Of a stretch of 64,000 nucleotides of DNA, positions 12,554-37,618 are shown one piece after another. Below the pieces are notes generated by a model. The model saw nothing but the letters and a program-made list of their open reading frames with translations, searched no databases and was not told the DNA's origin. How positions within the stretch are numbered: the stretch's first letter is position 1; each line of letters begins with the position of its first letter. Position numbers and translations under genes: made by a program. The DNA comes from Treponema primitia ZAS-2 (GTDB taxonomy: Bacteria; Spirochaetota; Spirochaetia; Treponematales; Breznakiellaceae), in assembly GCF_000214375.1 (NCBI RefSeq), contig NC_015578.1, positions 1,426,001-1,490,000 of the forward strand, in the 5' to 3' direction.

Positions 12554-12594
12554 GCCGGTGTTATCGGCGGAGAGCTTGTATTTGGCAACGATAT

Positions 12595-12771
12595 GTGCTA
12601 ACTTATTGAAATTAACGCCGCTTAACGCGGCAGGCTCTAAGAGCCTGCTTACGCAGGGGAGGGCGCGGCGCACTGGGCTGACTAAAGTCAGCCCGCCGTT
12701 GGTCGGTGCGGTGGCCTTTATTGGGCGCCGACGCGTGCTAACTTATTGAAATTAACGCCGCTTAACGCGGC
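12595..12771. repeat. 37-bp direct repeat pair with a hairpin between mntP and tRNA-Leu
   Basis: The same 37 bases (starting GTGCTAACTTATTG) occur at 12595-12631 and 12735-12771. Each copy ends in the hairpin GCCGC-TTAAC-GCGGC. The second copy ends five bases before the tRNA. Between them lie two further hairpins: 12630-12648 (GCAGGCTC/GAGCCTGC, loop TAA) and 12675-12694 (nine pairs, loop AA). No open frame uses this stretch. It looks like a small intergenic repeat element inserted next to the tRNA. Confidence 0.8.
12630..12694. other. Two strong hairpins
   Basis: The hairpin at 12630-12648 has eight pairs and a three-base loop. The one at 12675-12694 has nine pairs and a two-base loop. Neither is followed by a T-run, so they are poor intrinsic terminators for mntP, although they could protect its mRNA 3' end. 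They sit between the two 37-bp repeats. Confidence 0.6.
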
Positions 12772-12776
12772 GCTTT

Positions 12777-12859
12777 GCCGGCGTGGTGGAATGGTAGACA
12801 CGGTAGACTCAAAATCTACTGTCCGCGAGGATGTAAGAGTTCAAGTCTCTTCGCCGGTA
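12777..12859 (+). tRNA. tRNA-Leu (CAA)
   Basis: The cloverleaf is complete. The acceptor stem GCCGGCG pairs with CGCCGGT (one G-T), and the anticodon stem GTAGA/TCTAC encloses CTCAAAA with anticodon CAA. The long variable arm (TGTCCGCGAGGATG) is the class II type of leucine tRNAs. The T arm is AAGAG-TTCAAGT-CTCTT and the discriminator base is A. CCA is not encoded. Its last 52 bases and two following bases are repeated at 14437-14490, marking it as an integration target. Confidence 0.95.
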
Positions 12860-12861
12860 AC
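12808..12861 (+). repeat. attL-like direct repeat (3' part of tRNA-Leu)
   Basis: These 54 bases, from the anticodon loop to two bases past the discriminator, are identical to 14437-14490. Exact duplication of a tRNA 3' end is the hallmark of integration by a tyrosine recombinase. This copy keeps the tRNA intact. Confidence 0.85.
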
Positions 12862-13027
12862 GAACTATGGAAACGACTATATTAACGACCCTCTTGAAGG
12901 GTTGCGGCTGTTATCGCTGCTCAAATTTTGTATACAATCCATACTTTACAGAACAACATACCCCGTTGTACCAGGCATCGTTTGTCCCTGGATGAAGTTG
13001 TTTTAAGAAAATTGGAGAATCTTAAAT

Positions 13028-14257
13028 ATGAACAAGAATAACCTTATTGAGCGCAAACAATATATGCAAATACTCCGTGACCTTAAAGACCAACATATTA
13101 TTAAGGTCATTACCGGTGTACGCCGTTGCGGTAAGTCAACGCTGTTGGAGATGTTTGCCGACGAACTCCTGCAAAGTGGAATAAAGCCTGAGCAAATTCA
13201 ATTTCTTAATTTTGAAGACCCCGATATTTATACAATTGGGGATTGGAAAGCTGTTTATGACCATATTAAAGTTCAGCTTTTGCCTGATAAAATGAATTAT
13301 GTTTTTTTAGATGAAGTTCAAAATATTGATGTTTTTCAACGCCTTGTGGATGGACTTTTTATCAAGAAAAATGTCGATTTATATATTACCGGCTCAAATG
13401 CCCATTTACTTTCAGGTGAGTTGGCTACATTACTTACCGGTCGGTATATTGAAACCAATATCTTACCTTTGCAACTCGCTGAAATATATGACTTCAAATC
13501 GAAACCGCCAAACTTATCAAAATTAGAAACTTTGGCGGCTTACTTGCAAGAAGGCGGTATTCCGGAATATTACAATCAGAAGCAAATCAGTCAAAAACAG
13601 GCTGATAAATTTGTAGAAAGCGTTTTGAACACCATTATTGAAAAAGACATTTTTCAGCGATTAGTAATTAAAGACAAACATAATTTCAACAAAATCATCG
13701 ATTTTGTTTTTGATTCAGTAGGCTCCTTTGTTTCGCCACGCTCCATTTCAGATACTTTGCGTACCCATGGGACAATTATAGACAAGGAAGCCGTGGCAAG
13801 GTATTTAGATGCTATGTGTGATGCATTTTTAATATACAAAGTGCCTCGTTACGAGATAAAGGGAAAAGGACTTTTGCAAACCCTCAACAAATACTATCTT
13901 GTTGACCCTTGTTTTCGTAAAGTAAGACTCAAAAGGGAAATGTCAAAAGACCGCCCGCATTGGTTAGAAAATGCCGTATATTTTGAACTGATCAGACGTT
14001 ATCGTGATGTTTTAATTGGTAAAACAGGTAACCTTGAAGTTGATTTTGTTGTTACCGACCACGAAGGCTACACTTCGTATTATCAAGTATCCTGGACTAC
14101 CGAAAATCCCGAGACGCTCGAACGTGAACTTGCGCCACTCAATGCCATTAAGGATTCCAACCCAAAATATTTACTGACTACCGATATAGATTTTAATCCT
14201 GTATATAATGGTATTCGCAAATTAAATGTTACAGATTGGATGTTAGGAAATAAATAA
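13028..14257 (+). CDS. AAA+ ATPase with DUF4143 C-terminal domain
   Basis: The 409-aa protein has a P-loop at residues 30-38 (GVRRCGKST), Walker B at 91-97 (YVFLDEVQ), a sensor region ITGSNAHLLSGELATLLTGR, and a C-terminal DUF4143 region (about 215-380) with winged-helix-like sequence. COG1373 proteins of this kind are common as orphan ATPases in anaerobes, and their role is unsettled. GGAG at 13014-13017 precedes the ATG. It is the only gene between the two tRNA-Leu repeats and is clearly more AT-rich than mntP, consistent with transfer. Confidence 0.88.
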   Translation: MNKNNLIERKQYMQILRDLKDQHIIKVITGVRRCGKSTLLEMFADELLQSGIKPEQIQFLNFEDPDIYTIGDWKAVYDHIKVQLLPDKMNYVFLDEVQNIDVFQRLVDGLFIKKNVDLYITGSNAHLLSGELATLLTGRYIETNILPLQLAEIYDFKSKPPNLSKLETLAAYLQEGGIPEYYNQKQISQKQADKFVESVLNTIIEKDIFQRLVIKDKHNFNKIIDFVFDSVGSFVSPRSISDTLRTHGTIIDKEAVARYLDAMCDAFLIYKVPRYEIKGKGLLQTLNKYYLVDPCFRKVRLKREMSKDRPHWLENAVYFELIRRYRDVLIGKTGNLEVDFVVTDHEGYTSYYQVSWTTENPETLERELAPLNAIKDSNPKYLLTTDIDFNPVYNGIRKLNVTDWMLGNK

Positions 14258-14281
14258 CTATTCTGCGGGAATGAAAGGTTG

Positions 14282-14310
14282 AAATTGTGGGTACACTGTC
14301 CCCACAATTT
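14282..14310 (+). terminator. Hairpin after the AAA+ ATPase gene
   Basis: AAATTGTGGG (14282-14291) pairs perfectly with CCCACAATTT (14301-14310) across nine bases, starting 25 bases after the ATPase stop. There is no T-run, so termination is only probable. Confidence 0.5.
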
Positions 14311-14436
14311 GCACATAATGATTTTTCGGCAATGAAACATTTTTTATGACTAAATATGACAAATTCCGACCCATAGGGATTGACTTAATTTCATATGTGA
14401 TATACAATTATCAATAATGATTGATGCGGGGACTCC

Positions 14437-14490
14437 CTCAAAATCTACTGTCCGCGAGGATGTAAGAGTTCAAGTCTCTTCGCCGGTAAC
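14437..14490 (+). repeat. attR-like copy of the tRNA-Leu 3' end
   Basis: This is a 54-base perfect copy of 12808-12861. The tRNA 5' half is absent here, so it is not a gene. It closes a 1629-bp insert that carries only the DUF4143 ATPase. The remaining sequence from 14491 to 14644 holds no gene I can support. Confidence 0.85.
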
Positions 14491-14644
14491 AAGCTGATTT
14501 TTTGTGAAATAAGGAATTACAAACTTCAAAGAGAGAATACTATAGGAAAGACCTGCGCATCAATCAAATCACTATGAGAAAGCGGATTTTCAGTCCGTGG
14601 GCTAAACCGGCCTTTTTTCGAAGGATGGGGTTCATGTGCAGATT

Positions 14645-17600
14645 TTATGCAACCCAATTATATCCGGATATCGCCTGGTCAATGATATGGTCAAAAATGA
14701 TGGAACTTTTTTGTTCAAACAAAACCCTATCGTAACTTTCGGGGAGGTTTGTATCAAGAATGTCGGTAATTTCTTTCTTAATTCTTTCCCGGGGTTTCGG
14801 ATCCTTGTACCAGTCAATAACAAAAAGTTCTTGCTGTTTTTCAACAAGGGTCTTATATAAAGTCTTGGCTGCCAATTTTACTATTTTTGTTTCTTCTTTT
14901 GATAATTTTTCTTTTTGAAGCAGGTCAAAAAGTTCCAGTTCTGCTTCGCTTAAGTCTTCTTTAATATGGCGTTCTTCCTCATCACGGAGCGATTCCATAA
15001 GTTTAATGATTTTTTCATAAAAGTCATCGTTCTGTGAACCCCCGGAATTATATTCATCTATGATTTTTCTGAAACGCTCGGCAAAATCAGTGCGGGTACA
15101 ATTCCGTTTTAGCATTATCTCGATTTTCTTTGCGATATATTCCCGTAGATTGGTTATAGCCATATTTTTATATTGGGTATCATGCAATTTTTCCCGTAAT
15201 TCGTCTGTATCAATTTTTGATAGGTCAATTTCCCTTCCTTTTTCATTTATTATGTATTCCGGCTCTCCTTCTGCGGCTATGACACATTGATCCAGTAGTT
15301 CGTTTATGCGCTCTTGGGCTTTTTCCAGTTTTTCAGGACGGATTTTACCTTCGATTATTCCCCGCAAGTATAGTATTATATTCTTCATTGAAGGATCATA
15401 ATTCATTTTGAATATTTCAGGACGCAGGGATTCAAACAAATTTTCAACCGTATTAGCATATATTATAAATTCATTTTTTATCTCATCACTACTTACAATA
15501 ATATTAGCATATTTTTCAAACAATGAAAGATTTGTAAACACGGCATTTGGCGTATCTTTACCCAGCAGCAACGATAAGTCCATATCTTTATCATGACAAT
15601 AATCTGCGGTCATTTTGATGGTTTCATTTAGTTGGTCGAATAGTGTTTCTATATCCTTAACCGGGATATCATCTTCATCATCGGGGGAATATTCGGCAAG
15701 CGCATTCCGGAGATGTTTGAATACATCAAGGTAATCTACAATGATACCGTTATTTTTATCGGGGAAAACGCGGTTTGCCCTGGAGATGGTTTGCATAAGG
15801 GTATGGCTTTTCATAGGCTTATCAAGGTAGAGGGTTGAGACCGAAGGGGCATCAAACCCGGTAAGCCACATGGCGCATACAAATACCAATTGCAGGGGAT
15901 GGTTAGGGTCTTTAAAATTGTCTTCTATATCAAAACCATTATCATCTGTTTTATCCATGCGCTGACGGTGTAACTGAATAGAAAGCCCTTCTTTGTTAAA
16001 CTTATCTTCTTCACCGTCCTCTGCGCTTACTACCACGGCCATTTCGGCCTTACGCATATAATCAACTACCTGCTTTAACTCTTCTTTTCTTATCCGGCCT
16101 TCATTTGTGTATTCGTCTATTTCGCTGATTTCTTTATTGAGTTTTTTGATTTCTTCTTTCCAGTAGTAACTTACCTTATCATACATTTTTACTGCGGTAA
16201 ATTTATCTACCGAAATAACCATGCCTTTACCCTTAAAACCACGCTGGGGGAAATGTTTTACAATATGGCAGGCTATGGCATCAAGACGGTCATCACGTTT
16301 AAGGACTTCAAGCTCTTTTGCATAATGATTTTCCAGTCTGATTTTTTCTTCATCGGTGAGGGTTTCTTCCTCCAGGATTTCAGCAAAATCTTCTGAAAGT
16401 GGTTCATGTAAAAGTTCAACCCCGGGAACACGTTTTATATAATAGAGGGGGACAGTAGCGTTATCCTGGATTGATTCTGAGAAGGTATAACGGCTTAAAT
16501 AACCGGTCCCTTCGGTTTTGCCAAACCAACTGTTTGTTAAGTGTCTGCTGCCCAAAAGGGGAGTTCCGGTAAAGGCCATATACTGGGCATTGGGGAGGCC
16601 CCGGCGCATATTTTCAGCCAGGTCTTTATATTGTGTCCGATGGGCTTCATCCACAAAAACGAGAATATCGGAACGTTCTGAAAGAACAGGATATTGCTTT
16701 CCCTGGTCGTAACGGAATTTATGAATAAGGGTAAAGAGGATACCGGCATTTGTTTTCAAGGCTTCCCGCAGGGCAGTGCTGGAGGCCGGCTGAACCTTTT
16801 CTTTATCACCTATGACTTCGGTACGGAGGAAGTTTTTATAGATTTGAGTATCCAGGGCATCACGGTCTGTTACTATGAGGAACGTAAAATTTCCTTCGCA
16901 TTTTCGCTTGATTTTACGGGTAATCATTACCATTGAGTAACTTTTACCGCTGCCCTGGGTATGCCAGAATACTCCTAATTTGCCGTCAAGTTTTTCGCGG
17001 TTAAGAAATGCCTTGTAGGCATTATTAACGCCATGATACTGATGATTTTTTGCAATGATTTTAATTTTGCGCCGGTCAAATAAAACAAAGTTTTCAATAT
17101 AATCAATCAAGGTTTCAGGTTTGCATAAACCCCGGATAAAATATTCCAGGCTTATACAATCTTCTCTGATTTTTTTACGATCCGGTTTCTCGTCTTCGTT
17201 TTCTACTTTAAGCCATTCAAAAAAGTGTTCATAGCCTGACGAAAAACTCCCGAGGCGGGTCTCCATGCCATTAGAAAGAACGCAAATCTGGTTGTAATTA
17301 AACAGCCAGGGAATATCTTTATTGTAATCGATCAAGTTTTTATCGTAAGCGGTTTTAACATTGATATTTGAATTTTTAAGTTCAATGAAAACCAGGGGAA
17401 GGCCGTTGACAAATACTATGAGGTCAGGACGTCGCCAATGGAATTTTCCCTGTATCCACATTTGGGAAGCAACAATAAAGCTATTGTTTCTCAGATTGGT
17501 AAAATCAATAAGATTCAAAATGTTGGTGGTTTTTCTGCCGTCTTTCTGGTATTCAACGGTAACGCCGTTCCGCAGTTTTTGATAATTCTGGTAATTTGCA

Positions 17601-17866
17601 AGTACCGGATCGCCTGATTCAGGGGTAAGGGCAAGTTCAGCAGCTTTAGATTTTACCACCTCAAGGGGCAGATGGGGATTTATCGTGATAAGGCTTTCTA
17701 ACAGGACTTGTGGTAAAACCACCTGCTTTTTATTTGAACGGCCGGAATTATCCGGCAAAGTATCGGCATCCCGGGTAAAACAATTGATAGCCGTATACTT
17801 ATGCTCGGCCACTAGGAGTTTTAGGGCAGCTTGTTCTATCATGTCTTCGGTGATGATATTGGGCAT
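14645..17866 (-). CDS. hsdR: Type I restriction enzyme, R subunit (HsdR)
   Basis: The 1073-aa protein is the motor and nuclease subunit of a type I restriction system. The PD-(D/E)xK-type nuclease core is seen as RRPDLIVFVN (146-155) and VFIELKN (159-165). The SF2 helicase motifs follow: TQGSGKS (303-309), VDEAHRTQY (405-413), FTGTP, and SRANRVFPDK with ISR (motif VI). The C-terminal part is helical and charged. The start has only a weak ribosome site. Unusually, hsdR is separated from hsdM and hsdS by a divergent two-gene cassette and would need its own promoter in the 17867-18013 gap. Confidence 0.95.
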   Translation of the reverse strand: MPNIITEDMIEQAALKLLVAEHKYTAINCFTRDADTLPDNSGRSNKKQVVLPQVLLESLITINPHLPLEVVKSKAAELALTPESGDPVLANYQNYQKLRNGVTVEYQKDGRKTTNILNLIDFTNLRNNSFIVASQMWIQGKFHWRRPDLIVFVNGLPLVFIELKNSNINVKTAYDKNLIDYNKDIPWLFNYNQICVLSNGMETRLGSFSSGYEHFFEWLKVENEDEKPDRKKIREDCISLEYFIRGLCKPETLIDYIENFVLFDRRKIKIIAKNHQYHGVNNAYKAFLNREKLDGKLGVFWHTQGSGKSYSMVMITRKIKRKCEGNFTFLIVTDRDALDTQIYKNFLRTEVIGDKEKVQPASSTALREALKTNAGILFTLIHKFRYDQGKQYPVLSERSDILVFVDEAHRTQYKDLAENMRRGLPNAQYMAFTGTPLLGSRHLTNSWFGKTEGTGYLSRYTFSESIQDNATVPLYYIKRVPGVELLHEPLSEDFAEILEEETLTDEEKIRLENHYAKELEVLKRDDRLDAIACHIVKHFPQRGFKGKGMVISVDKFTAVKMYDKVSYYWKEEIKKLNKEISEIDEYTNEGRIRKEELKQVVDYMRKAEMAVVVSAEDGEEDKFNKEGLSIQLHRQRMDKTDDNGFDIEDNFKDPNHPLQLVFVCAMWLTGFDAPSVSTLYLDKPMKSHTLMQTISRANRVFPDKNNGIIVDYLDVFKHLRNALAEYSPDDEDDIPVKDIETLFDQLNETIKMTADYCHDKDMDLSLLLGKDTPNAVFTNLSLFEKYANIIVSSDEIKNEFIIYANTVENLFESLRPEIFKMNYDPSMKNIILYLRGIIEGKIRPEKLEKAQERINELLDQCVIAAEGEPEYIINEKGREIDLSKIDTDELREKLHDTQYKNMAITNLREYIAKKIEIMLKRNCTRTDFAERFRKIIDEYNSGGSQNDDFYEKIIKLMESLRDEEERHIKEDLSEAELELFDLLQKEKLSKEETKIVKLAAKTLYKTLVEKQQELFVIDWYKDPKPRERIKKEITDILDTNLPESYDRVLFEQKSSIIFDHIIDQAISGYNWVA

Positions 17867-17946: not shown

Positions 17947-17993
17947 CTTTGTAAAAAATATCTCTTTACAAAGCTAATTATTCATGTTATATT
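17947..17993 (+). promoter_or_regulatory. Promoter with overlapping palindrome for the XRE/ImmA gene
   Basis: TTTACA at 17965-17970 and TATATT at 17988-17993 are 17 bases apart, a good sigma-70 promoter on the plus strand. A perfect 9-bp inverted repeat, CTTTGTAAA (17947-17955) and TTTACAAAG (17965-17973) with a 9-base gap, covers the -35 box. This arrangement suits autorepression by the HTH protein encoded next. Transcription should start near 18000. Confidence 0.6.
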
Positions 17994-18013
17994 CATTAAT
18001 GGTACATTGTAAT

Positions 18014-19165
18014 ATGAAAGAGGCGCTGCCGGTTAATAAAGAAATCCTCAAATGGGCACGGGAAACCATCGGAATGGACATTGCCGAAGTTGCTCGCAGG
18101 GTAAAAAAACCGGCTGAGATCATTAAAGAATGGGAGGATGGCATTTCTTCACCCACCTATCCGATGCTCGAAAATCTGGCTTATAACGTGTATCGGCGGC
18201 CGGTGGCGGTGTTCTTTTTTCCGGCAGTTCCTGAAGAAAAAAATACCAATGCAGATTTCAGAACGCTGCCCGGAGAAGTCGTAGATACCATGCCACCCGG
18301 AATTATCAAAATCTACCGTAAAGCTAAAACTTACCAGCTTAATCTGGCTGAGTTATATGAAAATAGGAAACCTGTTGAAAAAAGTTTGCTTGATATTTTT
18401 AAAATGGATTCTCTAACGAATGTCGATCAGCTGGCGCAGGATATCCGGGCCTTCCTTGGTATTGACATGGTAAAGCTAGATGTATGTAAAACCGATGATG
18501 ATGCCCTTAAATTGTGGCGTGATGCGCTTGCCCATAAGGGAATTTTTATTTTTAAAGATGCTTTTTTCAATAACGAATTTTCAGGGCTTTGTGTATATGA
18601 TGCGGTCTATCCGGTGATTTTCCTTAATAATATTATGCCAAAAACAAGGCAGATTTTTACGATTTTCCATGAACTGGGACATCTCCTTCTTAACTCGGGC
18701 GGTATTGATGCTCCTTCTGAAAATTTCAACAGACGCCTTACCGGGGATTATTCCCGCATTGAACAAAAATGCAATAATTTTGCCGGCGAATTGATTTTCC
18801 CCAAAAGTTTTTTTGCCGCTTTAGGTGTTCCCTTTAGTGAAGATGCGGTAATAGAATTAGCCAACATTTACAAAGTAAGCAGGGAAGTAGTTCTGCGAAA
18901 ATATCTTGATACCGGTCAGATTGACTTTTCTGCTTATACTGGGTTGACTGATAAATGGGCCTTTGAATATTTCAAGCGTAGAAAAAGTAAGCCCGGAGGG
19001 AATCCTTATTTAACCAAAAAGGCATATCTTGGAGAAACCTATATTACTCTTGCCTTTAGTCATTATTACGAAGGTAAGACTAGTATTGAAGGTTTGGCTG
19101 ATTATTTTGGAATGGCAGTTAAAAACATTTCTACCTTTGAGGGTTATACCCTGGGGCAAGTATGA
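18014..19165 (+). CDS. XRE-family HTH / ImmA-IrrE-type metallopeptidase
   Basis: From MKEALPV the protein is 383 aa. An N-terminal helix-turn-helix (about 9-60: ILKWARETIGMDIAEVARRV...SPTYPMLENLA) is followed by an ImmA/IrrE zinc peptidase domain with HELGH at residues 219-223. Such fusions cleave repressors or antitoxins and often work with a neighbouring partner. An upstream in-frame ATG at 17984 lies within the likely promoter, so the start at 18014 is preferred; the leader would then be only about 14 nt. The stop overlaps the next ATG (ATGA), so the two proteins are coupled. Confidence 0.85.
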   Translation: MKEALPVNKEILKWARETIGMDIAEVARRVKKPAEIIKEWEDGISSPTYPMLENLAYNVYRRPVAVFFFPAVPEEKNTNADFRTLPGEVVDTMPPGIIKIYRKAKTYQLNLAELYENRKPVEKSLLDIFKMDSLTNVDQLAQDIRAFLGIDMVKLDVCKTDDDALKLWRDALAHKGIFIFKDAFFNNEFSGLCVYDAVYPVIFLNNIMPKTRQIFTIFHELGHLLLNSGGIDAPSENFNRRLTGDYSRIEQKCNNFAGELIFPKSFFAALGVPFSEDAVIELANIYKVSREVVLRKYLDTGQIDFSAYTGLTDKWAFEYFKRRKSKPGGNPYLTKKAYLGETYITLAFSHYYEGKTSIEGLADYFGMAVKNISTFEGYTLGQV

Positions 19166-19638
19166 TATATGTTTTTGACAACAATACTCTTGCAGGTATA
19201 TTCAGGCATTATTTCCGCGCTTCTTTTCCAACGTTTTGGGAACGGTTTGATACAATGGTTTCCGATGGTACTATCTGTTCGGTTAGGGAGGTAAATAACG
19301 AACTAAAACGCATGGCTCGCGGGGATGAATTAGAAGCATGGGCTAAAACACACACAAATTTTTTCTGCCTGCCCACATCTGACGAACTGCGTTTTATAAC
19401 TCAAATATACAGTGTCCCTCATTTTTTACAAAACCTTGGTGCAAAGAAATTATTCAATGGCGGAGCCTTTGCGGATCCATTTCTCATTGCAAAAGCATAT
19501 ATTAGCGGTGGTACGGTAGTAACCCAGGAAAAACTAAAACCCCATGGGGCAAAGATTCCGAATATTTGCAAACATTTTTCCATACCCTACACTGATCTGC
19601 AAGGATTCTTGCAGGCACAAAACTGGGTATTCAAGTAA
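19162..19638 (+). CDS. DUF4411 PIN-like protein
   Basis: The 158-aa protein has a PIN-type layout. An aspartate at residue 6 in MIYVFDNNTL starts the acidic site, glutamates occur in VREVNNELKR, and FADPFLIAKA carries the later aspartate. These match DUF4411, a PIN-like family of putative nucleases usually encoded beside an XRE/ImmA protein, exactly as here. The pair is best read as a toxin-antitoxin-like or stress-response module, with the PIN protein as candidate RNase. It starts within the stop of the upstream gene. Confidence 0.8.
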   Translation: MIYVFDNNTLAGIFRHYFRASFPTFWERFDTMVSDGTICSVREVNNELKRMARGDELEAWAKTHTNFFCLPTSDELRFITQIYSVPHFLQNLGAKKLFNGGAFADPFLIAKAYISGGTVVTQEKLKPHGAKIPNICKHFSIPYTDLQGFLQAQNWVFK

Positions 19639-19652
19639 ATAGTTTTTATAAT

Positions 19653-20870
19653 TCACACTTCAAGTTTACCGCTTAACAGGCGAGGAAGGAGGAGATCGCG
19701 CTGGCGATCCAAGTTTTGGGATTGAGTTTGCAATATACGTTTTTGGCTAATTAAAGCTCCGGCTTTTTCATAGAACACGTCCAAAATGTGGACCTCCGGC
19801 ATAATGAGCTTGATTTTATTCAAATTTTCAATAGTTAAGGCACTTTGAGATGTTCCGATTGTCGAAGAAAATAATGCATTTTTACCAATATCAGAATTAA
19901 GCCAAAGAAAAATATATAAAGCGCTTTGCGGTGTTTTTCCGCTTTGTAACCATGTCAAATTTCCATCTTTGAAGTAAAACACACGATCATCAACGAGCCA
20001 TGATATTCCAATTGTACCAACTGATGTTATAAGGATGTCATTTTTTGATGGTACACCAAATTTATTTTTCAGCTCATTATACTTATCTTCTAAAATATAC
20101 AATGGTTCAGTTAGCGATTCACCATTTGCGGATTGTATGACTTCTTTTGAGCGATAGAAGGGGATGCCTTTGTCTACATAATCGGACAGGTAAATTCGTT
20201 TGCTGGAAGTAATATTTACAACTTCTCCCAATCGCTTAACTTCCCATCCCTTGGGGATACCGTCTTCAAACCGTGTTTTCTTATACCCTGGAAAACGAAA
20301 TCGGACAAACCACTCTTTATACAATTCCTGGGTAGCTTTTTCCAAAAGTATTATGCAGCGACTATTGTTCTCTATAAGATCGTCATAGGCGGAGAGAATT
20401 TCGGCAATACGGTGTTGGGTGGGAAGAGGTGGAACGGAAATTTTCATATGATCAAAAGTAGCTCTAATTATTGTATCAAAGACGGCACCATTTGCAATTT
20501 GTTTAAAATATTTAAGTTGATGTTTTAAGGAATAATAAATATAATCATTTGAATAGTTTGATTTTGCTCGCAGCCCGTAATTCGATTGGTTAAAAGCCAT
20601 TGGCAATCCTATTTGGGCAATTTCACCGACCGTTCCTCTTGCAGAAATAATGATATCCCCTTTTTCCAATAGATTTGTTGCACTGTTTTCCAACCCTTTA
20701 TCTGTGATTGTTTTTTCCGACTTATAGACCCATCTTGAATCCCCTGAAAAATCATTAACAGAAAGCCAATAAATACCCCCATTCCAATAATCTGATACTT
20801 CGGTTTTTGGAGTTCCTCCATTAATAATATCTACAATTTCACTTACCCGTTTTACTTCCCACTTACTCAT
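19653..20870 (-). CDS. hsdS: Type I restriction system specificity subunit (HsdS)
   Basis: The 405-aa protein has the two-repeat HsdS design. TRD1 starts WEVKRVSEIVDIINGGTPKT; a central conserved helix contains LPTQHRIAEILSAYDDLIENN; TRD2 starts GIPKGWEVKRLGEVVNITSSK; and a C-terminal conserved helix contains LISQKRILQTQSQNLDRQRDLLLPRLLSGKL. The two domains set the bipartite DNA target of both the methylase and the nuclease. The ATG overlaps the stop of the small gene upstream by 4 bp. No second hsdS or inverted partial copy is present, so shufflon-type switching is not evident. Confidence 0.95.
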   Translation of the reverse strand: MSKWEVKRVSEIVDIINGGTPKTEVSDYWNGGIYWLSVNDFSGDSRWVYKSEKTITDKGLENSATNLLEKGDIIISARGTVGEIAQIGLPMAFNQSNYGLRAKSNYSNDYIYYSLKHQLKYFKQIANGAVFDTIIRATFDHMKISVPPLPTQHRIAEILSAYDDLIENNSRCIILLEKATQELYKEWFVRFRFPGYKKTRFEDGIPKGWEVKRLGEVVNITSSKRIYLSDYVDKGIPFYRSKEVIQSANGESLTEPLYILEDKYNELKNKFGVPSKNDILITSVGTIGISWLVDDRVFYFKDGNLTWLQSGKTPQSALYIFLWLNSDIGKNALFSSTIGTSQSALTIENLNKIKLIMPEVHILDVFYEKAGALISQKRILQTQSQNLDRQRDLLLPRLLSGKLEV

Positions 20871-21295
20871 TTTCCACCCACCGTGACATATTTCTGATTT
20901 TTGCTGGTAGGCTTATCGGGGATAGTTCGCTCAAGTTTCCCGCTTTCAATAAGTGGATTTAATATTGCAGTTCTAAAATATTTCCTATCTTTAATATTTA
21001 CCCGTCTCTGTATTTCGTCAGCACTTTTTGGAGTGTTGCAGAAAACCAATATACGCTCTTCCCTGCTTGCATCTTGATCACTACCTTGAGGGGTATCTTG
21101 GGGGGTAGCTTGGGGGGTAGCTTGGGGGGTAGCTTGAGGGGTAGCTTGAGGGGTACCATCGAAGAAAGGCACCGGTAAAATAAACCTGAAATAGGCGTTA
21201 TCGTCCGTTATGACTGGGTTGTTGCCGCAATAGGCTTTGCAATATTTATAGATCTTGATGTTCCGTAAATCAATGCGTAAAATCTGCTCGTTCAT
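20867..21295 (-). CDS. Winged-helix protein with TPQ repeats, inside the hsd operon
   Basis: The 142-aa product resembles the C-terminal end of AlbA_2/HATPase_c_4 proteins. Its first 45 residues (KIYKYCKAYCGNNPVITDDNAYFRFILP) match the end of that ATPase domain. A linker of five or six TPQ-type tetrapeptides follows, then a winged helix (about 90-142: PKSADEIQRRVNIKDRKYFRTAIL). The ATPase and AlbA parts are missing, so it is a remnant or a stand-alone DNA-binding accessory. It starts by 4-bp overlap with hsdM and ends by 4-bp overlap with hsdS, so it is translated with them. Confidence 0.65.
   Translation of the reverse strand: MNEQILRIDLRNIKIYKYCKAYCGNNPVITDDNAYFRFILPVPFFDGTPQATPQATPQATPQATPQDTPQGSDQDASREERILVFCNTPKSADEIQRRVNIKDRKYFRTAILNPLIESGKLERTIPDKPTSKNQKYVTVGGK
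21085..21156. repeat. 12-bp tandem repeat, six units
   Basis: Six consecutive 12-base units of the form CTTGRGGGGTAG lie inside the small hsd-operon gene and encode its TPQ linker. Because the unit is a multiple of three, copy changes would lengthen or shorten the linker without breaking the frame. Confidence 0.85.
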
Positions 21296-22992
21296 TTACT
21301 GCCCACCAGTTCCTGCAAATTCACCCGTATCTTTTTTTCCAGCTTTTTTGCTTCATCATTAAGTTTGGAAAGTTCTTCATTTAAATTAAGCATTTCATTC
21401 TTGAATTCCGCTTCGGTCATTCCATCATCTTCGATAACTACACCGACATAACGGCCGGGATTAAGGGAATAATCCTGATCCTTTATGCCATCCTCACCTT
21501 TTATTTTTGCAGCTTTACAGAGGCCGATTACATCGGCATATTTACCCCTGGGGAAGCGTTCCGTGAGCCAATCAATATTTGACTGCCAATAAGCTTTTTC
21601 TTCTTTATCTTTTGCCTTTTCTTTAGCGGCCTTGTATTCATCAAGGAGGGCTTTATACTCATCGGTTTTTCCTTCGTAAAGGCGGGTAATGATTCCCAAA
21701 TTCTTTATCTGTTCATCAGAAAATTTGCGATGAGCCCGGTCCACTTGGGTAAAAATATTACGGGCATCTATAAAAAGAATTTCATCTTTTTTATGTTTTG
21801 CCTTATCGAAAAACCAGAGGGTTGCGGGAAGGGTAACGCTGGAAAACATATTGGTAGGCAGGGTTACCATCTGGCTGATGACACCGGATTCTATCAATTT
21901 TATGCGGATATCCTTTTCGCTATGCCCCGCATCGGACGCAGAATTTGCCATAACCAGAGCCGCCCGGCCTTGATCGTTCAGGGAAGTGGCAAAGAGGTTT
22001 ATCCAAAGGTAGTTGGCATTGGGGACTGTTTCCTTGGCGTCTTTTTTTTTCTGCTTTGTTTTATTCCGGGGAACACCGTAACTGTTAAAGCGGGGTTGGT
22101 TGATTACCTGATCCAGTTCTACCTCGTCAACGTTAAAAGGTGGATTTGCCATGACATAATCAAAAGCGCCAAGACTATTGTGGGGATCCCGGTAATAGGA
22201 ATTTGCTTCTACAATTTCGCCTCGGACATTATTCAGAATCAGGTTCATTTTTGCCAGACGAACCGTGGCGGCTGTCTTTTCAACACCATAGGCGCGGAGA
22301 TTTATATCCCTGCCCTTTTTCCGATGCCGGGTTATGTAATGGGCAGTCTGGACAAACATACCACCAGAACCACAGGCGGGGTCAAGGATTTTGCCTTCCG
22401 CGGGAGCAAGCACTTCTACCATATAGCGGACGACCGTTGATGGGGTAAAGAATTCGCCCCCTCCTTGGCCTTCGGCAAGGGCAAATTCGCCAAGAAAGTA
22501 TTCGTAGATTTCACCGAATATATCCAGGCTTACATCGGTGGGAATATCCTTAAAAGCTTTGAGGAGTTTTGCCAATACTAGGGGGTCATCTTCACTGTTG
22601 ACCCGATAGTATTCATCTTTGGGTAGGGTTCCGGCAAGCTCTACGGTATATTTTTCCAGTTTTATCATGGCGTTCTTAACTTTTTCGGCGAGGTTGGTAT
22701 CTTCGCTCAGGTTAAGCAGGTAACTGTAACGGGCTTCATCGGGGAGATAATAACCGCATTTCTCTATGGCGATTTCATGGATGGGCCGCTCGGCCCGCTT
22801 ACCTTTGTTTTTGTTGTATTCAGCCTGTATGTCCGCTTCATATTGGGTGTATTTACTTTCTGCAAAACGGAGGAAAATGAGGCCGAGTATGGGGGTAGCG
22901 TATTCGGTTGATTTTAGGCCGGAGTTGGCGCGGAGCTGGTCTGCGGTACTCCAGAGGGTGTCTTTCAGGTTTTTAAGCTGTTCGTTGGTCAT
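21292..22992 (-). CDS. hsdM: Type I restriction system methyltransferase (HsdM)
   Basis: The 566-aa N6-adenine methyltransferase starts with an HsdM N-terminal domain (NLKDTLWSTADQLRANSGLKSTEYATPIL). It carries the AdoMet motif DPACGSGG at residues 204-211 and the catalytic NPPF at 283-286. A C-terminal coiled-coil (NEMLNLNEELSKLNDEAKKLEKKI) probably contacts HsdS. It is the first gene of the minus-strand hsdM-wHTH-hsdS operon. The MCP gene lies 21 bp further upstream on the same strand and could read into it. Confidence 0.95.
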   Translation of the reverse strand: MTNEQLKNLKDTLWSTADQLRANSGLKSTEYATPILGLIFLRFAESKYTQYEADIQAEYNKNKGKRAERPIHEIAIEKCGYYLPDEARYSYLLNLSEDTNLAEKVKNAMIKLEKYTVELAGTLPKDEYYRVNSEDDPLVLAKLLKAFKDIPTDVSLDIFGEIYEYFLGEFALAEGQGGGEFFTPSTVVRYMVEVLAPAEGKILDPACGSGGMFVQTAHYITRHRKKGRDINLRAYGVEKTAATVRLAKMNLILNNVRGEIVEANSYYRDPHNSLGAFDYVMANPPFNVDEVELDQVINQPRFNSYGVPRNKTKQKKKDAKETVPNANYLWINLFATSLNDQGRAALVMANSASDAGHSEKDIRIKLIESGVISQMVTLPTNMFSSVTLPATLWFFDKAKHKKDEILFIDARNIFTQVDRAHRKFSDEQIKNLGIITRLYEGKTDEYKALLDEYKAAKEKAKDKEEKAYWQSNIDWLTERFPRGKYADVIGLCKAAKIKGEDGIKDQDYSLNPGRYVGVVIEDDGMTEAEFKNEMLNLNEELSKLNDEAKKLEKKIRVNLQELVGSK

Positions 22993-23013: not shown

Positions 23014-25110
23014 TCAAAAGCTGCTTCTGACCTTAAATATACTAATCGACTCGTCCAAATCCACCACGCCGCGCCCGGCGCTTTCTGCGAACTGGACCAC
23101 CGAATTGGAATTATCCGACAGGGTGTTAAAATCCTGTTCACAGGCTGTAACCTTTTCCGCTACCCCAAGGCTTAATTCCGTAAGGGAACGGCACAGGTTT
23201 GACGCCGATGAGGCTTCAGTCTTCATAACTGCGGCGCCGTCTTTAACGTCCACAGTAATGGTGTTGATTATCTGGTTGGAGCGTACTATCTGTTCTGCTC
23301 CTATGCTTTGTTCACGGGTGGCATCGTGTAAACGGGTGGCAATCTTTTCAACATCATGGATCTTTTCAATGGTTTCCACAAAGGACTGCTCTACTTCGGT
23401 GGAAGCGGCGGCTATACCCCGGATCTTTTTCTGAATAGACAGGAGGGCCTCGCTGGAATTTTTTGACTGCTGGGAGGTGGCTTCTGCCAGTTTGCGGATT
23501 TCCTGGGCGACTACCGCAAAACCACGGCCCGCTTCTCCTGCGTGGGCCGCTTCTATGGCGGCGTTCATGGACAGGAGGTTTGTCTGGGTTGCTACATCGG
23601 AAATAACCTTGTTCATCTCCGCCAGGGATTGGGATTCTGTCTCAACCTGCTTAGTCGCTTCCGCTACTTCCGATAGCCGCTTTTTTTCTTCCGCCGAGGA
23701 GGCTACCAATTCTTCCACATTGGCGCTCATGGACAGGGCACTCTGTTCTACAGAACGAATGCTGGCGGCCATCTCTTCCATGGCCGAAGAAGCGGCGCTT
23801 ATGGCATCACCCTGGCCGTTTATTTTTTCGTTGAGCCGTTCTATCTCGTTCATGATATTGAGAACCTTGGATTCGGATTCGCTGATGGATTGGTTCTCCC
23901 GGTTTATGTCCCCACGGATAGATTCTACCACTTCCCTGGCGCTGGAAATAGTTTCCCTGGTTATCCCCGCAGAGCTTGATAAATTATCCGCGATCTGCTG
24001 TATCGAAGTCGAAGAATCCTGTATTTTTTTTACCATGGAGCTGATACCCCCGGTAAAATTGTTGAAGCCCTGGGAAAGGCTTGATGCTTCTTTAGAGCTA
24101 TAGTCCCCGGATTCAATGTTTAAATCCCCGCCGGCAATAACATCGAAACATTTTACCAGCTCTTTAAAAGGCCGGGTGATGGCGGTACTCATAAAAATTG
24201 CGGCGGCAGATACTAATACTGCTATTAAAACGGCGGTTAAAATGATGAGACGCAGCAGGGCCTGGGCGTCCTTCTGTAGTACCGCAAGAGAACCGGTTGA
24301 AACCATGAACCATTCTGTCCCGGCTACCGGGGAAGAACAGACGTAGGTATCCCTGGTGAGGGAAACTGTCCCAAGCTTTGTTAATACCGATTCCAGGCTG
24401 ATAGATTTGTCAACCATGTCAAAGAAGTTGCGCTGCATGATATACGTTGGATCGCTATGGGTCAGAAACAAGCCGTCAGCATCAACAAGGAAGCTGCGGC
24501 CGTCATCGGTGATCTTCCGGGCGTTGACTAGATCCACCAGGACATCCATAAACACATCGACTCCGACTACCCCGGCGATCTGCCCCCGTGCATCTTCGGC
24601 GGTCCGGACTATGGAGACGCAGATCTTTCCGGTTTGAGAATCTTCATAGGGGTCGGTAATAATGATTTGACCGGGGGACTGTATGGCGCTTATAAACCAG
24701 GGGCGCTTAACCTGATCCCAGGTTTCGGAATCTACATAGGGCGCCCAGTCTGTGGCGGTAACAAAATAGCCCCCGTCAAAACGGGAAGCAATGGTCCCAA
24801 AGTACATTTCAAAGACCGTGGAATTGGTGGAAAGTATATCCTTGAGGATGCTGTCAAGGGATTCCGGGGAAGGAACGCCCGCCGCAAAGGCGGCCGCTTG
24901 GGTGGTCATCTGAATAGCCGGGGCCAGGGCGTTTTGTATGTCCGCATTCAGGTAACGCATGGTGATATCCGCATTGGAACGGAGGTTTTTTTCGGTAATC
25001 TTGGACAGGTTGGTCATAAAAATTACGGAAAAAATCGTGGAAATCGTCAGTACCAAACCAAGACACAGTAACAGAATCTGCAATGAAAGCGAAACATATC
25101 TCTTTTTCAT
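23014..25110 (-). CDS. Methyl-accepting chemotaxis protein
   Basis: This is a 698-aa inner-membrane chemoreceptor. A first helix (about 8-32) and a second one (about 286-308) bracket a periplasmic dCache-like sensor containing [12 protein letters not shown] and [18 protein letters not shown] domain follows ([19 protein letters not shown]), then a long coiled coil with the conserved signalling tip [39 protein letters not shown] (quoted in parts). It should signal to CheA/CheW. The ligand is unknown; the dCache fold often binds amino acids. AGGAAT precedes the ATG. Confidence 0.95.
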
Positions 25111-25250: not shown

Positions 25251-26597
25251 CTACCCGAAAAGTCTCCTGCACTCCAAGTAAAAGCGCTTTTCTTCCGCCT
25301 CCCCCATGGAAAAACTTTTCCGCGGCAGAGGGCCGGAGCGGGCCACGGTGCGGAATAAGCCGTCTTTCCTCACCGGTGGCAGGAGTATGCCCACTGCGGG
25401 CTTTTCTCCGACCGCCCAGGCGAGGCGGGTCAGGTCCTTTTCACCATGGATGTAGTCAATGGAGCGCCCCTGGGCTTCGCTAATAAAACTGTCCAACAGG
25501 GGTTGGAGGGGTTCAGTGGCTATTCCGGCGGCACTGGTTTCAACCAGGATGCTCTGGCCGGCTGAGATGAGACCGTAGCGGTTTCCCCGGGTCTCCTCCG
25601 CGACCAGCCGGGAAAGTTCCTCCAGGCCGGAGATGGGGCGGCTGGAGAAACCCGGGAGCTTTTTCAGAGTTTCCAGGACCGCTTCCACTCCGGCGCCGAA
25701 GATAAGCCGGTGTATGGGTTCAAAGGCTATTCCCGGATCGTAGAGGTTTTCCAGCTCAACCAGGGCATACCGGGCAGGATGTTTCTCAAGCCCCGGTTCA
25801 CCCTGATGCTGCTTTTTGTACTCCTCCCAGACCCCCTTGGCGGTGGCCAGGGAGTGGTTGCCGTCGCCCATGGCGTAGAGGAAGGGGTGGTCTCCGGGCG
25901 CGGTGTTACCGTACCGGGTGACCGCCCGGCGGGCAAGGGTCTCCAGGCCCTCCGCCAGGAAACGCCAGTCCTCTTCACGGTCCAAAAACCAGCCGCTTAC
26001 TGTCCCGGCGCCGCCCATGAGGGGGGTGTTGTAACAGGGCTGAACTTGCTTTGCCCGCTCTCCCAGGCCTGGGAACAGGGTGTCCTCTTGGTCATCGATA
26101 AGTACGATGATGTGGGGCGTTTCCAGGGGGGCGGAACGGCGTATCTCCATCCGGGGGGGAAGCCTTTCCGGGACCGTGCCTTCGGTGGACCGGATCAGGG
26201 GCCGGGAAGAAGGGGCCCAGTCGTATTCTTCCAGGTCTAAGGCCAGAACCAGCCCCCGGCGGCGGGGGTGCAGAGCCGTGCCCCGTTCAATATAGACCAG
26301 ACCTTTCCGGGGAGGGGCCAGAATTCCTTCTAAAAAAACGGATTCCATTGCCTTATGGATGACCTTGATACGGTTTTCCCGGTCAGGATCCTCCAGATAG
26401 ACTTCGGGGAAGATCAAATTTAGGGTGGAAGGGGAGGATCCGGCGGTTTTCCGGACAGTTTCCCAATAGCTGCGGTCCTGGGTAAACTGATCGCAGGCGA
26501 TAACCGCCCACTTTTCCAGGTCAATATCCCCCCGGGGAAGGGCAATTTCGGGTATAACCGTGCCTAATGCCGCAAGCCGTTGCTCTAAATCTGCCAT
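25251..26597 (-). CDS. DUF1015 family protein
   Basis: The 448-aa protein matches the DUF1015 family across its length: VIACDQFTQDRSYWE near the N terminus (the family-typical start after a proline-rich opening), YIERGTALHPRRRGLVLALDLEEYD, and the central FLYAMGDGNHSLATAK. Some relatives are called SpoIIAA-like or HTH-3-linked, and a role in serine/phosphoserine metabolism has been suggested for the family, but no reaction can be assigned here. It is a soluble protein on its own transcript. An AGGGAGG-type ribosome site precedes the ATG. Confidence 0.8.
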   Translation of the reverse strand: MADLEQRLAALGTVIPEIALPRGDIDLEKWAVIACDQFTQDRSYWETVRKTAGSSPSTLNLIFPEVYLEDPDRENRIKVIHKAMESVFLEGILAPPRKGLVYIERGTALHPRRRGLVLALDLEEYDWAPSSRPLIRSTEGTVPERLPPRMEIRRSAPLETPHIIVLIDDQEDTLFPGLGERAKQVQPCYNTPLMGGAGTVSGWFLDREEDWRFLAEGLETLARRAVTRYGNTAPGDHPFLYAMGDGNHSLATAKGVWEEYKKQHQGEPGLEKHPARYALVELENLYDPGIAFEPIHRLIFGAGVEAVLETLKKLPGFSSRPISGLEELSRLVAEETRGNRYGLISAGQSILVETSAAGIATEPLQPLLDSFISEAQGRSIDYIHGEKDLTRLAWAVGEKPAVGILLPPVRKDGLFRTVARSGPLPRKSFSMGEAEEKRFYLECRRLFG

Positions 26598-26647
26598 TGA
26601 AGAGCCTCCCTGTCAGGTACTTTACCGATCACCCCGGTTTTTTACAA

Positions 26648-26690
26648 TAGAGTTATTCGGCAACCAACCGGGTTTCCAAACAAGTCCAAT
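26648..26690. repeat. Short copy of the 46.2-kb hairpin repeat
   Basis: The stretch TAGAGTTATTCGGCAACC...AACCGGGTTTCC...AAGTCCAAT matches the two ends of the element at 46221-46330, which has TAGAGTTGTTCGGAAAC and ends GGTTTCCTCATAAGTCCAAT. The middle is missing here. It lies between the DUF1015 and rpoN promoters. Confidence 0.6.
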
Positions 26691-26787
26691 CTCTTTCCGC
26701 TTGACAAAGAACCCGCATGGAACAATAGTTTTATCAAGGCCTGTTGGATTTTGACAGGCCGGGCACTCGATCCTTTGGGAGTATTCC

Positions 26788-28146
26788 GTGCAGCTGCAGC
26801 GTCCGTCCTTTATCCAGGAACAGCGTCTCAAAATGAATCCCCAGCAGATTCAGTCTATCAAAATGATGGGGCTGCCCATTATGGATCTGCGGGAGAAAAT
26901 CGAGGAAGAGGTTGAGCGGAACCCTGCCCTGGAAGTGGTGGCGGATCATACGGTCCTTTCCCTGGATGAAGCCTATGTTCCCCGCAAAGAAGAGAATGAC
27001 TACTTTGAAACCAGTTCGGATTCGGGCTTTGTCAGCAAGGGGGGGGATGAGGAATCTGCGGAGCGGCATAAATTCCTGGAAGGGGCCCTGTCCCGGCCGG
27101 AAACCCTCCAGGAGCACCTGCTCTGGCAGCTTAGGCTTGAAATTGCAGAGGAACCGGTACGCCGTATTGGGGAACGTTTAATTCAAAACCTGGACGAAAA
27201 CGGCTTCCACAAGGAACCCCTGGATGCCCTGCTTAAGGAAAATAATCCTGCCTATATTGTCCGGGCCCTGGCCATAATCCGCTCCCTGGACCCCGTGGGG
27301 ACCTGTACCGCCGATTACCGGGAATCCCTCAGGGTGCAGGCGGAACTCCTTCCGGCGCCCCCCCCGGGCATCATCGAGGCCCTGGATTACCTGGAACAGC
27401 TCGAGCGGGGCAAAATTGCCGAAGTAGCCCGAAAGCTGGCCCGTTCCGAAGCTGAAGTCCTGGCCATATTTGAGCAAATCAAGGAACTGTCCCCCTTCCC
27501 GGGTCGGCGTTTTGCATCGGACAATACCCGCTATGTGGTTCCGGATGTGCAGGTTATCAAAAAAGAGGGGGAATTTGTCATCATCCTCAATGACGAGGAG
27601 ATCCCCGTATTGGGCTTAAATCCTTTTTTTATGAAAATTTCCGGTGAAAAGGGAGAGGATAAGTCCGCCCGGGATTTTGTCCGGGAAAATATTAAGGAAG
27701 CCCGGTGGTTTATCCAGTCGATTAACGAGCGGAACCACACCCTGCTCAGGGTATCCCGTGCTATAGTGGAGTTTCAACGGGCTTTTTTTGTGAACGGCCC
27801 CCGGGACATTGCACCCCTGACCCTGCGGGATATAGCCCAGGAACTGGGGCTGAATGAGTCAACTATTTCCCGAGCCGCCCGGGGAAAGTATATGCAAACC
27901 GAATGGGGTATCTTTGAGATTCGCCATTTCTTTACCAATTCCATCAGTGGAACCGGATCCGACAGGTCCCGGTATTCAAAGGAGGGGGTTAAGGAGATAA
28001 TAAGGGAACTTATCAGCACCGAGGGGAAGCACTCTTCGGATCAGGAAATTGCCGAACTTCTGGCCAGGCAGGGAATCCCCCTGGCCAGGCGGACCGTCGC
28101 CAAGTACCGGAACGAACTGGATCTGGGATCATCGTACACCCGATAG
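26788..28146 (+). CDS. rpoN: RNA polymerase sigma-54 factor
   Basis: The 452-aa protein has the full sigma-54 design. A glutamine/leucine-rich activator-binding region I (LQRPSFIQEQRLKMNPQQIQSIKMM) is followed by an acidic linker, the core-binding domain (about 90-260), the HTH region with TLRDIAQELGLNESTISRAARGKYMQT, and a C-terminal RpoN box ARRTVAKYRNELDL that reads the -24 element. The GTG start at 26788 is preceded by GGGAG at 26777-26781. In spirochaetes sigma-54 directs membrane-protein or nitrogen-related regulons, depending on the species. hpf follows 27 bp downstream, a widely conserved pairing. Confidence 0.95.
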   Translation: MQLQRPSFIQEQRLKMNPQQIQSIKMMGLPIMDLREKIEEEVERNPALEVVADHTVLSLDEAYVPRKEENDYFETSSDSGFVSKGGDEESAERHKFLEGALSRPETLQEHLLWQLRLEIAEEPVRRIGERLIQNLDENGFHKEPLDALLKENNPAYIVRALAIIRSLDPVGTCTADYRESLRVQAELLPAPPPGIIEALDYLEQLERGKIAEVARKLARSEAEVLAIFEQIKELSPFPGRRFASDNTRYVVPDVQVIKKEGEFVIILNDEEIPVLGLNPFFMKISGEKGEDKSARDFVRENIKEARWFIQSINERNHTLLRVSRAIVEFQRAFFVNGPRDIAPLTLRDIAQELGLNESTISRAARGKYMQTEWGIFEIRHFFTNSISGTGSDRSRYSKEGVKEIIRELISTEGKHSSDQEIAELLARQGIPLARRTVAKYRNELDLGSSYTR

Positions 28147-35915: not shown

Positions 35916-35988
35916 GGCGGCATAGCTCAGTTGGTAGAGCATACGGCTCATATCCGTAGTGTCATAGGTTCAATCCCTATTGCCGCTA
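35916..35988 (+). tRNA. tRNA-Met (CAU), elongator type likely
   Basis: The acceptor stem GGCGGCA pairs with TGCCGCT (one G-T) and the D arm is AGCTCAGTTGGTAGAGCA. The anticodon stem TACGG/CCGTA encloses CTCATAT with anticodon CAT. The T arm is ATAGG-TTCAATC-CCTAT and the discriminator is A. The stem ends rule out initiator tRNA, which needs an unpaired 1:72. A lysidine-modified tRNA-Ile2 also has CAU and cannot be fully excluded. CCA is not encoded. Its 3' end is repeated at 36143, 36312 and 38120 and, degenerately, at 51.2 kb. Confidence 0.92.
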
Positions 35989-36411
35989 AAGAAAAAAAGT
36001 AAATATGACCGAATAGATTGCGGCAATAGGGATTGAAGGGTTCAGTCCGCCGACCGAACGGGAGGAAAAGGGGCCATGGATGGCCCCGACAGGACTGAAC
36101 CCCGGGTCGGAAGGCCGAAGCAGGATGCTGAGGCCTGGAGACCAATCCCTATTGCCGCTAGAAAAGATTAAATACGACCGAACATATTCCGGCAATAGGG
36201 ATTGAAGGGTTTAGTCCGCCGACCGAATGGGAGGAGAAGGGGCCATGGATGGCCCCGTCAGGGTTAAACCCCGGGTCGGAAGGCCGAAGCAGGATGCTGA
36301 GGCCTGGAGACCAATCCCTATTGCCGCTAGAAAAGATTAAATACGACCGAATATATTCCAGCAATAGGGATTGAAGGGTTTAACCCGCCGACCGAACGGG
36401 AGGAAAAGGGG
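35971..36411. repeat. Tandem repeat array built on the tRNA 3' end
   Basis: The 17-mer CAATCCCTATTGCCGCT, the tRNA 3' end, recurs at 36143 and 36312. Between copies its reverse complement (CGGCAATAGGGATTG) occurs at 36021, 36190 and, slightly changed, 36360. Units are 172 and 169 bp; the third is cut off at about 36411 by the integrase fragment. Each full unit folds into an 11-bp stem (36038-36048 with 36092-36102; 36207-36217 with 36261-36271) enclosing GGGGCCA-TGGA-TGGCCCC, then a hairpin AGGCC-GA-AGCA-GGA-TGCT-GA-GGCCT (36112-36136). The minus-strand open frames here are by-products of the repeats. Confidence 0.85.
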
Positions 36412-36898
36412 CCAGGCCATAGGCCGTGAATACTGCTATGCAAATCACGGTTTTATTGAACGCCATATTAAGCCCCGCGTACAGGGATTACATCTGCGGG
36501 AAGTGACAGCCCAGGATTTGGATCGGTTACAGCTTCAGATTAAAAAAGAAACCAAACTCAAGGCAAAGACCGTCAATTCAATCCTGGCCGCTGTCTGTAT
36601 ACCAATTCGCGAAGCCTTCAGGGTTGGAAGAGTATCCCATAACCCGGCGCAAAAATTTCGCGGCCTTGGGCGCGATGACGATCCCCGGGGGATCCTTTCA
36701 AGCGCGGAACTGAAAAAGCTCTTTGCAGAACCCTGGGAGACGGAAGCCCACAGGTTAGCTGTGGCGCTCTCGCACGCCACCGGGATGCGCCTGGGAGAAA
36801 TACTTGCCATAGGGCTGGAGGATATAACCCTGGACTTCGAGGAGAAGCCGGTGTTATGGGTCCGGAAAAGCTGGTCTACAGTATCGGGCCATAAGTGA
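36371..36898 (+). pseudogene. Truncated tyrosine recombinase (integrase)
   Basis: The 175-aa frame starts with an ATG inside the third repeat unit; its first 15 residues are repeat-derived. From GREYCYANHGFIERHIKPRV it matches the core-binding domain of phage integrases (QLQIKKETKLKAKTVNSILAAVCIPIREAFRVGRV), then enters the catalytic domain at LSHATGMRLGEILAIGLEDI, with the first catalytic arginine present. It stops at GHK* before the HxxR and tyrosine motifs, so it cannot catalyse recombination. It is the remains of the enzyme that probably used the CAU tRNA as its site. Confidence 0.85.
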
Positions 36899-36943
36899 AG
36901 ATGTCCGGGGGTAGCGATGCAGCGGATTTCATAGGGAGGAGAT

Positions 36944-37614: not shown

Positions 37615-37618
37615 AATT

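Follow-up and report, generated by a model that had tools for sequence, protein, structure and literature searches.

A probable right-end remnant of a tRNA-Leu(CAA) integrative island, in tandem with a second decayed island, in Treponema primitia ZAS-2

A 1.6-kb unit lying behind the tRNA-Leu(CAA) gene of Treponema primitia ZAS-2 was analysed. It is most probably what remains of the right end of an integrative island, standing in tandem with a second decayed island at the same tRNA. The window is the whole stretch of DNA that was studied, i.e. 64,000 nucleotides of contig NC_015578.1 (positions 1,426,001 to 1,490,000, forward strand), and coordinates without a prefix refer to it. An earlier note had described a perfect 54-bp duplication of the tRNA 3' end bracketing one AAA+ ATPase gene, with no integrase, and had proposed either a decayed island or a passenger of very small size, with a recombinase encoded elsewhere to mobilise it. 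The duplication (an exact match, with none in the shuffled sequences) and the lack of an integrase within the unit (no match inside it by tblastn with six integrase queries) were both confirmed. Of the two proposals, the decayed island was preferred: the right (R) arm is recognisable, the left (L) arm has been lost together with the integrase, and the neighbouring unit is worn down too. The passenger proposal was disfavoured, the L arm of the sibling elements being missing after the tRNA.

Results

The tRNA and the unit that follows it contain these features:

12776..12861, + strand: intact tRNA-Leu(CAA), the integration target (ARAGORN; Rfam tRNA, 56.8 bits)
12808..12861, + strand: core copy 1, from the tRNA anticodon loop to the 3' end (exact 54-bp match)
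12862..13027, + strand: left junction of the DUF4143 unit, where the expected L arm is absent (local alignment)
13028..14257, + strand: intact gene of an AAA_14 + DUF4143 ATPase, 409 aa (Pfam; PADLOC PDC-S01)
14343..14436, + strand: R arm of the unit (alignment with its counterpart in the tRNA-Tyr island)
14437..14490, + strand: core copy 2 (exact 54-bp match)

The 54-bp core runs from the anticodon loop to just beyond the 3' end of tRNA-Leu(CAA) and is repeated without a mismatch, in direct orientation, at the far end of the unit. No exact repeat of this length was expected by chance (0 expected, 100 shuffles). When stretched to 59 nt, the two copies were 97% identical. Only these two copies were found genome-wide (4,059,867 bp, one contig; up to three mismatches), and neither the window nor the genome held a third at this threshold. 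The earlier note had taken the perfect identity as a sign of recent insertion or gene conversion; core copy 1 belongs to a working tRNA under selection, so the identity need not reflect either. The G+C content of the unit is 36.7%, against 49.9% for the window. tRNA was the sole family found by an Rfam scan of the window and of the loci L046, L031 and L053. Just 5' of tRNA-Leu, a 58-bp direct repeat (86% identity, 12574-12771) ends in AACGCCGCTTAACGCGGC; a 58-bp repeat ending in AACGCCGCTTAACGCGGC is also present upstream of tRNA-Leu in three other genomes (G006, G009 and G010).

An island inserted at tRNA-Tyr in the same genome (G000:C1:1946946-1980374, about 33 kb, exact 50-bp repeat) was used for comparison. 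A full-length 478-aa tyrosine integrase adjoins the tRNA, in the order tRNA, L arm, integrase. The island carries a P4-family primase/helicase (TIGR01613, 307.6 bits against a cut-off of 108.7), and its cargo includes type I restriction genes and PADLOC defence-model matches. Beyond its attR lie a further L arm and an integrase remnant. R arm, L arm, an anticodon-loop core and defence-type cargo are common to the tRNA-Tyr and tRNA-Leu sites. The tRNA-Tyr island differs from the window unit by its full length, its integrase and its primase/helicase, which is absent from the window unit.

Relatives of this integrase were detected at E<=1e-20 in 87 of the 195 genomes of the family. Thirty-six integrase loci were inspected; seven rows come from the genome studied here, two of these being one gene. 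An intact upstream tRNA on the same strand was present at 28 loci and belonged to ten isotypes. The L-arm palindrome begins 4-9 nt past the tRNA in 23 of these 28 loci, and was not at this distance in the other five. Because of this proportion, an L arm and an integrase right after the tRNA are the rule in the treponeme integrase family. No intact upstream tRNA was present at the remaining 8/36 loci, among which L055 and L057 are one gene and L075 begins at the match. At L071 and L076, only the 3' half of a tRNA-Lys precedes the L arm and integrase; this arrangement is expected for the distal member of a tandem and, like the L arm and integrase remnant beyond the tRNA-Tyr attR, provides a precedent for one. 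Assignment to a known phage or plasmid integrase was rejected (the best matches cover about half of the protein, with identities no higher than about 30%).

The palindrome, TAATTCYTTAYNNNRTAAGGAATTA, was found in 100 of 118 genomes of the family (up to two mismatches), and its reversed control almost never. Of the sites inspected, many are not next to a tRNA, and some are by poly-C tracts, so that elements of more than one type may carry the palindrome. It was therefore rejected as a diagnostic on its own. The L arms that follow tRNA-Leu in G001 and G010 gave scores of 55 and 53. At the G010 locus (L035:6846-9084), the L arm abuts tRNA-Leu(CAA) and is followed by frames that are helicase/restriction-like as judged by eye, and by a CRISPR-like array.

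The right end of the window unit has an arm as well as a core. Local alignment of its R arm with that of the tRNA-Tyr island gave a score of 95 over 86 bp, with a shuffle maximum of 27. A pattern of 31 R-arm bases, searched with up to three mismatches, was present in 4/291 genomes of the order, at five places: two in the genome studied here, and a single one in G001, in G015 and in G267. Each of the five is beside a tRNA 3' half, of Leu (the window, G001 and G015) or of Tyr (the far end of the tRNA-Tyr island in the same genome, and G267). Over 53 nt, the core copy of G015 shares 94% identity with the tRNA of the window, not with the tRNA of its own genome. A sigma-70-like site, TTGACT-17-TACAAT, lies in the window R arm at 14380-14408 and is oriented towards the core; the consensus TTGACN-17-TAYAAT faces the core in four of the five R arms. 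The R arm of G001 lacks the -35 box.

The left end has no such arm. After the first core, the L arms of the tRNA-Tyr island, of the neighbouring unit (unit B), of G001 and of G010 scored 16-20, against shuffle maxima of 27-29; the tRNA is thus not followed by an L arm. The leader gave no match better than E 0.15 (12862-13030) and no match in any other locus compared (12862-13027). Between the cores (12862-14436) no integrase was found, a remnant being present in the neighbouring unit only. In the window, the sole match of the six integrase queries at E<=1e-4 was at 36410-36895.

The DNA beyond the second core contains these features:

14495..14576, + strand: L arm of the neighbouring unit (alignment with the tRNA-Tyr attL; palindrome)
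14537..14648, + strand: remnant of an integrase 5' region, in two pieces, AHQSNHYEK and AFFRRMGFMCRFY (tblastn, DNA alignment)
14645..17866, - strand: HsdR of a type I restriction system (Pfam; PADLOC REase_I, E 1.2e-165)
17984..19165, + strand: HTH + Peptidase_M78 gene (ImmA/IrrE-like), within the restriction cluster (Pfam)
19162..19638, + strand: DUF4411 gene, within the restriction cluster (Pfam)
19653..20870, - strand: HsdS (Pfam)
21292..22992, - strand: HsdM (Pfam)

The L arm of the neighbouring unit consists of a degenerate palindrome, TAATTCCTTA..TAAGGAATTA (14495-14519, three mismatches), and of CTAnnGGAAAnACCTGCGC. The integrase remnant matched the N-terminus of the tRNA-Tyr island integrase (tblastn, E 1.5e-4), and alignment of 14510-14648 with the tRNA-Tyr attL, integrase 5' region included, scored 117 (shuffle maximum 28). 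Since an L arm is present after the second core and absent after the first, the segment 14343-14648 reads as R arm, core, L arm and start of an integrase, i.e. as a putative tandem junction. If the DUF4143 unit were taken out, the degenerate palindrome would start 5 nt past the tRNA.

We infer that the restriction cluster is the cargo of the distal unit. The stop codon of a chemotaxis gene (23014-25110) is 21 bp away from the start of HsdM and no later core follows, so the right end of the distal unit looks to have been cut off by deletion. A third core copy was sought as the far end of this unit and none was found within the window; without it, the extent of the unit is uncertain. A DUF1015-type gene and rpoN are located 5' of tRNA-Leu in G001 (L031:2-2697) and beyond the restriction cluster in the window (25251-28146). 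As they are on opposite sides, the gene neighbourhood is rearranged relative to G001 and G002.

A sibling of the unit was found in G001, a genome of the same genus, by a search with the tRNA region in 38 related genomes. A 53-nt copy of the tRNA-Leu(CAA) 3' half is located there 2007 bp downstream. The two 53-nt cores are identical (CTCAAAATC...GCCGGTAA), and the 2007-bp unit has an arm at either end, with six tRNA genes and one reading frame of 179 aa; no integrase was found in it. The joined flanks of G001 match the empty site of G002 in 1058 of 1087 columns, tRNA-Leu of G002 running directly into the sequence that G001 has behind its second core. One tRNA is restored in the pre-insertion state of this sibling, and the integrase-less unit of G001 is therefore a clean insertion. 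The six tRNA genes form an array (Ser, Lys, Phe, Asp, His, Ile) at L031:3635-4118. For the window locus, no relative was found with a pre-insertion state or with an intact proximal island.

The sole long gene between the core copies is 13028-14257. Its 409-aa product contains AAA_14 (E 1.1e-30) and DUF4143 (E 3.1e-12) Pfam domains, and matches the PADLOC model PDC-S01 from end to end (E 4.6e-140; residues 3-407, model positions 8-408 of 412). In an alignment of 18 ATPase sequences, the Walker A motif, DEVQ and residues E337, D339 and Q353 were all invariant. The structure was predicted with a pLDDT of 88. The fold neighbours of the model were the archaeal AAA+ proteins 2qen and 2fna, followed by Orc/Cdc6 and STAND/NLR-type ATPases; no homologue was found in the PDB by sequence. 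According to PMC12988326, PDC-S01 is a fusion of an ATPase with a domain of the PD-(D/E)XK type, and most such candidates are awaiting validation. On the basis of this description and of the invariant E337, D339 and Q353, the C-terminus is read as a candidate PD-(D/E)XK domain. From the PDC-S01 prediction, the DUF4143 ATPase is a candidate anti-phage cargo.

In genome_contigs, the best segments of the closest relatives of the ATPase show 68-88% identity, some of the frames being interrupted. They were found in Bacteroidales-type MAGs and in one Deltaproteobacteria MAG. Judging from isolate labels, these MAGs are probably mostly from the gut, some of them from the termite gut. The best relative among the 195 genomes of the own family reaches 48% over the full length and 58% over part of it. 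Relatives in Bacteroidales-type MAGs being closer than those in the own family, the comparison suggests that the gene may have been transferred between phyla, in gut communities. Forty other DUF4143 loci were examined (33 from the family of the window and its own genome, seven from genome_contigs) and none had a tRNA in the flank examined, which ruled out DUF4143 genes as a class of tRNA-associated passengers. The earlier note had proposed to compare the borders of the unit in relatives. Half of this comparison gave an answer: elsewhere the ATPase has other borders, so it is cargo. For the other half, no pre-insertion state of the exact locus was found; that of the G001 sibling restores one tRNA.

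Discussion

The history that we prefer for the window locus would be as follows. An island would have inserted into tRNA-Leu(CAA) by the action of a tyrosine recombinase. The crossover would take place in the anticodon loop, so that the island brings its own tRNA 3' half and leaves a copy at the far end. Either a pair of related islands or two copies of a single island would have come to lie in tandem. The proximal island would then have lost its L arm, its integrase and other cargo, from after the tRNA to before the ATPase gene, and its remnant would be the DUF4143 gene and the R arm. This deletion is proposed from the missing L arm, no relative with an intact proximal island or with the pre-insertion state of the locus having been found. 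The rearranged gene neighbourhood, the lack of a third core copy, the missing -35 box in the R arm of G001 and the integrase loci with no palindrome at 4-9 nt or no intact upstream tRNA speak against this history. The distal island would have kept its L arm and the type I restriction system, while its right end and the greater part of its integrase were deleted. The DUF4143 gene was probably retained since it is useful or neutral. In intact members of the family, the tRNA-adjacent integrase would recognise conserved arms distinct from the tRNA core.

The geometry of the arms bears on integrase expression. A promoter in the R arm would read across the core into the L arm; it follows that the circle and a tandem junction are the only settings in which it could drive the integrase, and that integration would uncouple it from the integrase. 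An extension of this scheme, in which conserved arms are common to treponeme tRNA islands at many tRNAs, small integrase-less units such as single defence genes or tRNA arrays are moved in trans by any sibling integrase present, and the integrase is expressed from the circle only, is unlikely to hold as a whole.

Three other origins were weighed against two decayed islands in tandem. The two units could be tandem copies of one island that underwent complementary deletions, the DUF4143 gene being right-end cargo and the restriction genes left-end cargo. The R arm of the unit and the L arm beyond the second core have an inverted repeat of 11 nt in common, TGATTGATGCG, a length reached in 1/1000 shuffles. 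It is the longest match of this R arm among the three L arms compared, as expected of the two ends of one element, and the two ends of the G001 unit likewise share 11 nt. However, the R and L arms of the tRNA-Tyr island share an inverted repeat of 7 nt only (222/1000 shuffles), so this test is weak, and the lack of duplicated cargo also argues against two copies of one island. We regard this origin as possible, though doubtful. If the tRNA 3' end had been duplicated locally or copied by gene conversion, with no integrated element, the perfect identity of the two cores would be accounted for, and tRNA-tailed tandem repeats that arose by another process do exist at the tRNA-Met of the window. 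This origin is contradicted by the arms, which flank the second copy on both sides and have matches beside other tRNAs as well as in other genomes, and by the clean empty site of the sibling insertion in G001; we consider it very improbable. An integron or attC-like cassette was set aside, the copies being tRNA 3' halves.

It was also considered that the 1.6-kb unit is a non-autonomous passenger with a recombination site at either end, for which the tRNA-Tyr island would supply the integrase in trans. The genome does possess an intact integrase in an island with near-matching arms, and the 2007-bp unit of G001, which has both arms, lacks an integrase and corresponds to a clean empty site in G002, has the structure that such a passenger would have. 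Yet the window unit has no L arm, the Tyr and Leu cores differ, and DUF4143 genes elsewhere are not associated with tRNAs (0/40). In addition, a short-range exact copy of a tRNA 3' half was seen only here and in G001 (118 tRNA calls at 173 loci, many of them short or overlapping). Mobilisation in trans is thus possible for the G001 sibling and, because of the missing L arm, unlikely for the window unit, for which we rate the passenger as quite improbable.

The remnant of a tandem island that we favour resembles several described systems. Cis-mobilizable elements (CIMEs) and the accretion concept are reportedly the subject of Pavlovic 2004, as a cited reference. According to PMC5704250, CIMEs related to ICESt1 of Streptococcus have lost the integration genes, kept the copies of the target-gene end and lie in tandem with another element. 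The window unit is like them an integrase-less unit with a copy of the target end, beside a second element. It differs by having no left arm, so that one att site is probably non-functional, and by its target, a tRNA-Leu in a spirochaete. The Dehalococcoides ssrA islands, as presented in PMC3146451, are in tandem and bounded by 3'-end repeats, 15 of them without and 16 with an integration module. The likeness lies in the tandem islands behind an RNA gene and the 3'-end repeats; a serine recombinase and tmRNA are involved there, a tyrosine recombinase and many tRNAs here. P4-like satellites carry defence hotspots, according to PMC8628076 and PMC9122126. They resemble the tRNA-Tyr sibling by the tRNA-adjacent integrase, the P4-family primase (TIGR01613) and the defence cargo, and differ by the spirochaete host; the window unit has none of these genes.

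Tandem accretion and decayed, integrase-less islands are thus known already, and the treponeme island family is little described: literature searches on integrase-bearing tRNA islands of treponemes (Treponema primitia; termite Treponema) found no description. The window locus adds to treponeme tRNA islands, in termite-gut and other species, an example of tandem arrival, of decay from the tRNA side and of single defence genes that remain. Conserved recombinase arms could be used to delimit such islands in treponeme genomes.

Repeats of another kind were observed at tRNA-Met of the window (35916-38197). Tandem repeats of 169 bp, with copies at 35974, 36143, 36312 and 38120, each end in the last ~20 nt of the tRNA, and no Rfam match was obtained for them. 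The last gap between copies contains a 175-aa integrase fragment and a few short reading frames. These repeats resemble the rtT/tyrT repeats of E. coli. By eye, a similar repeat with tRNA-Tyr ends is present in G267 (L046).
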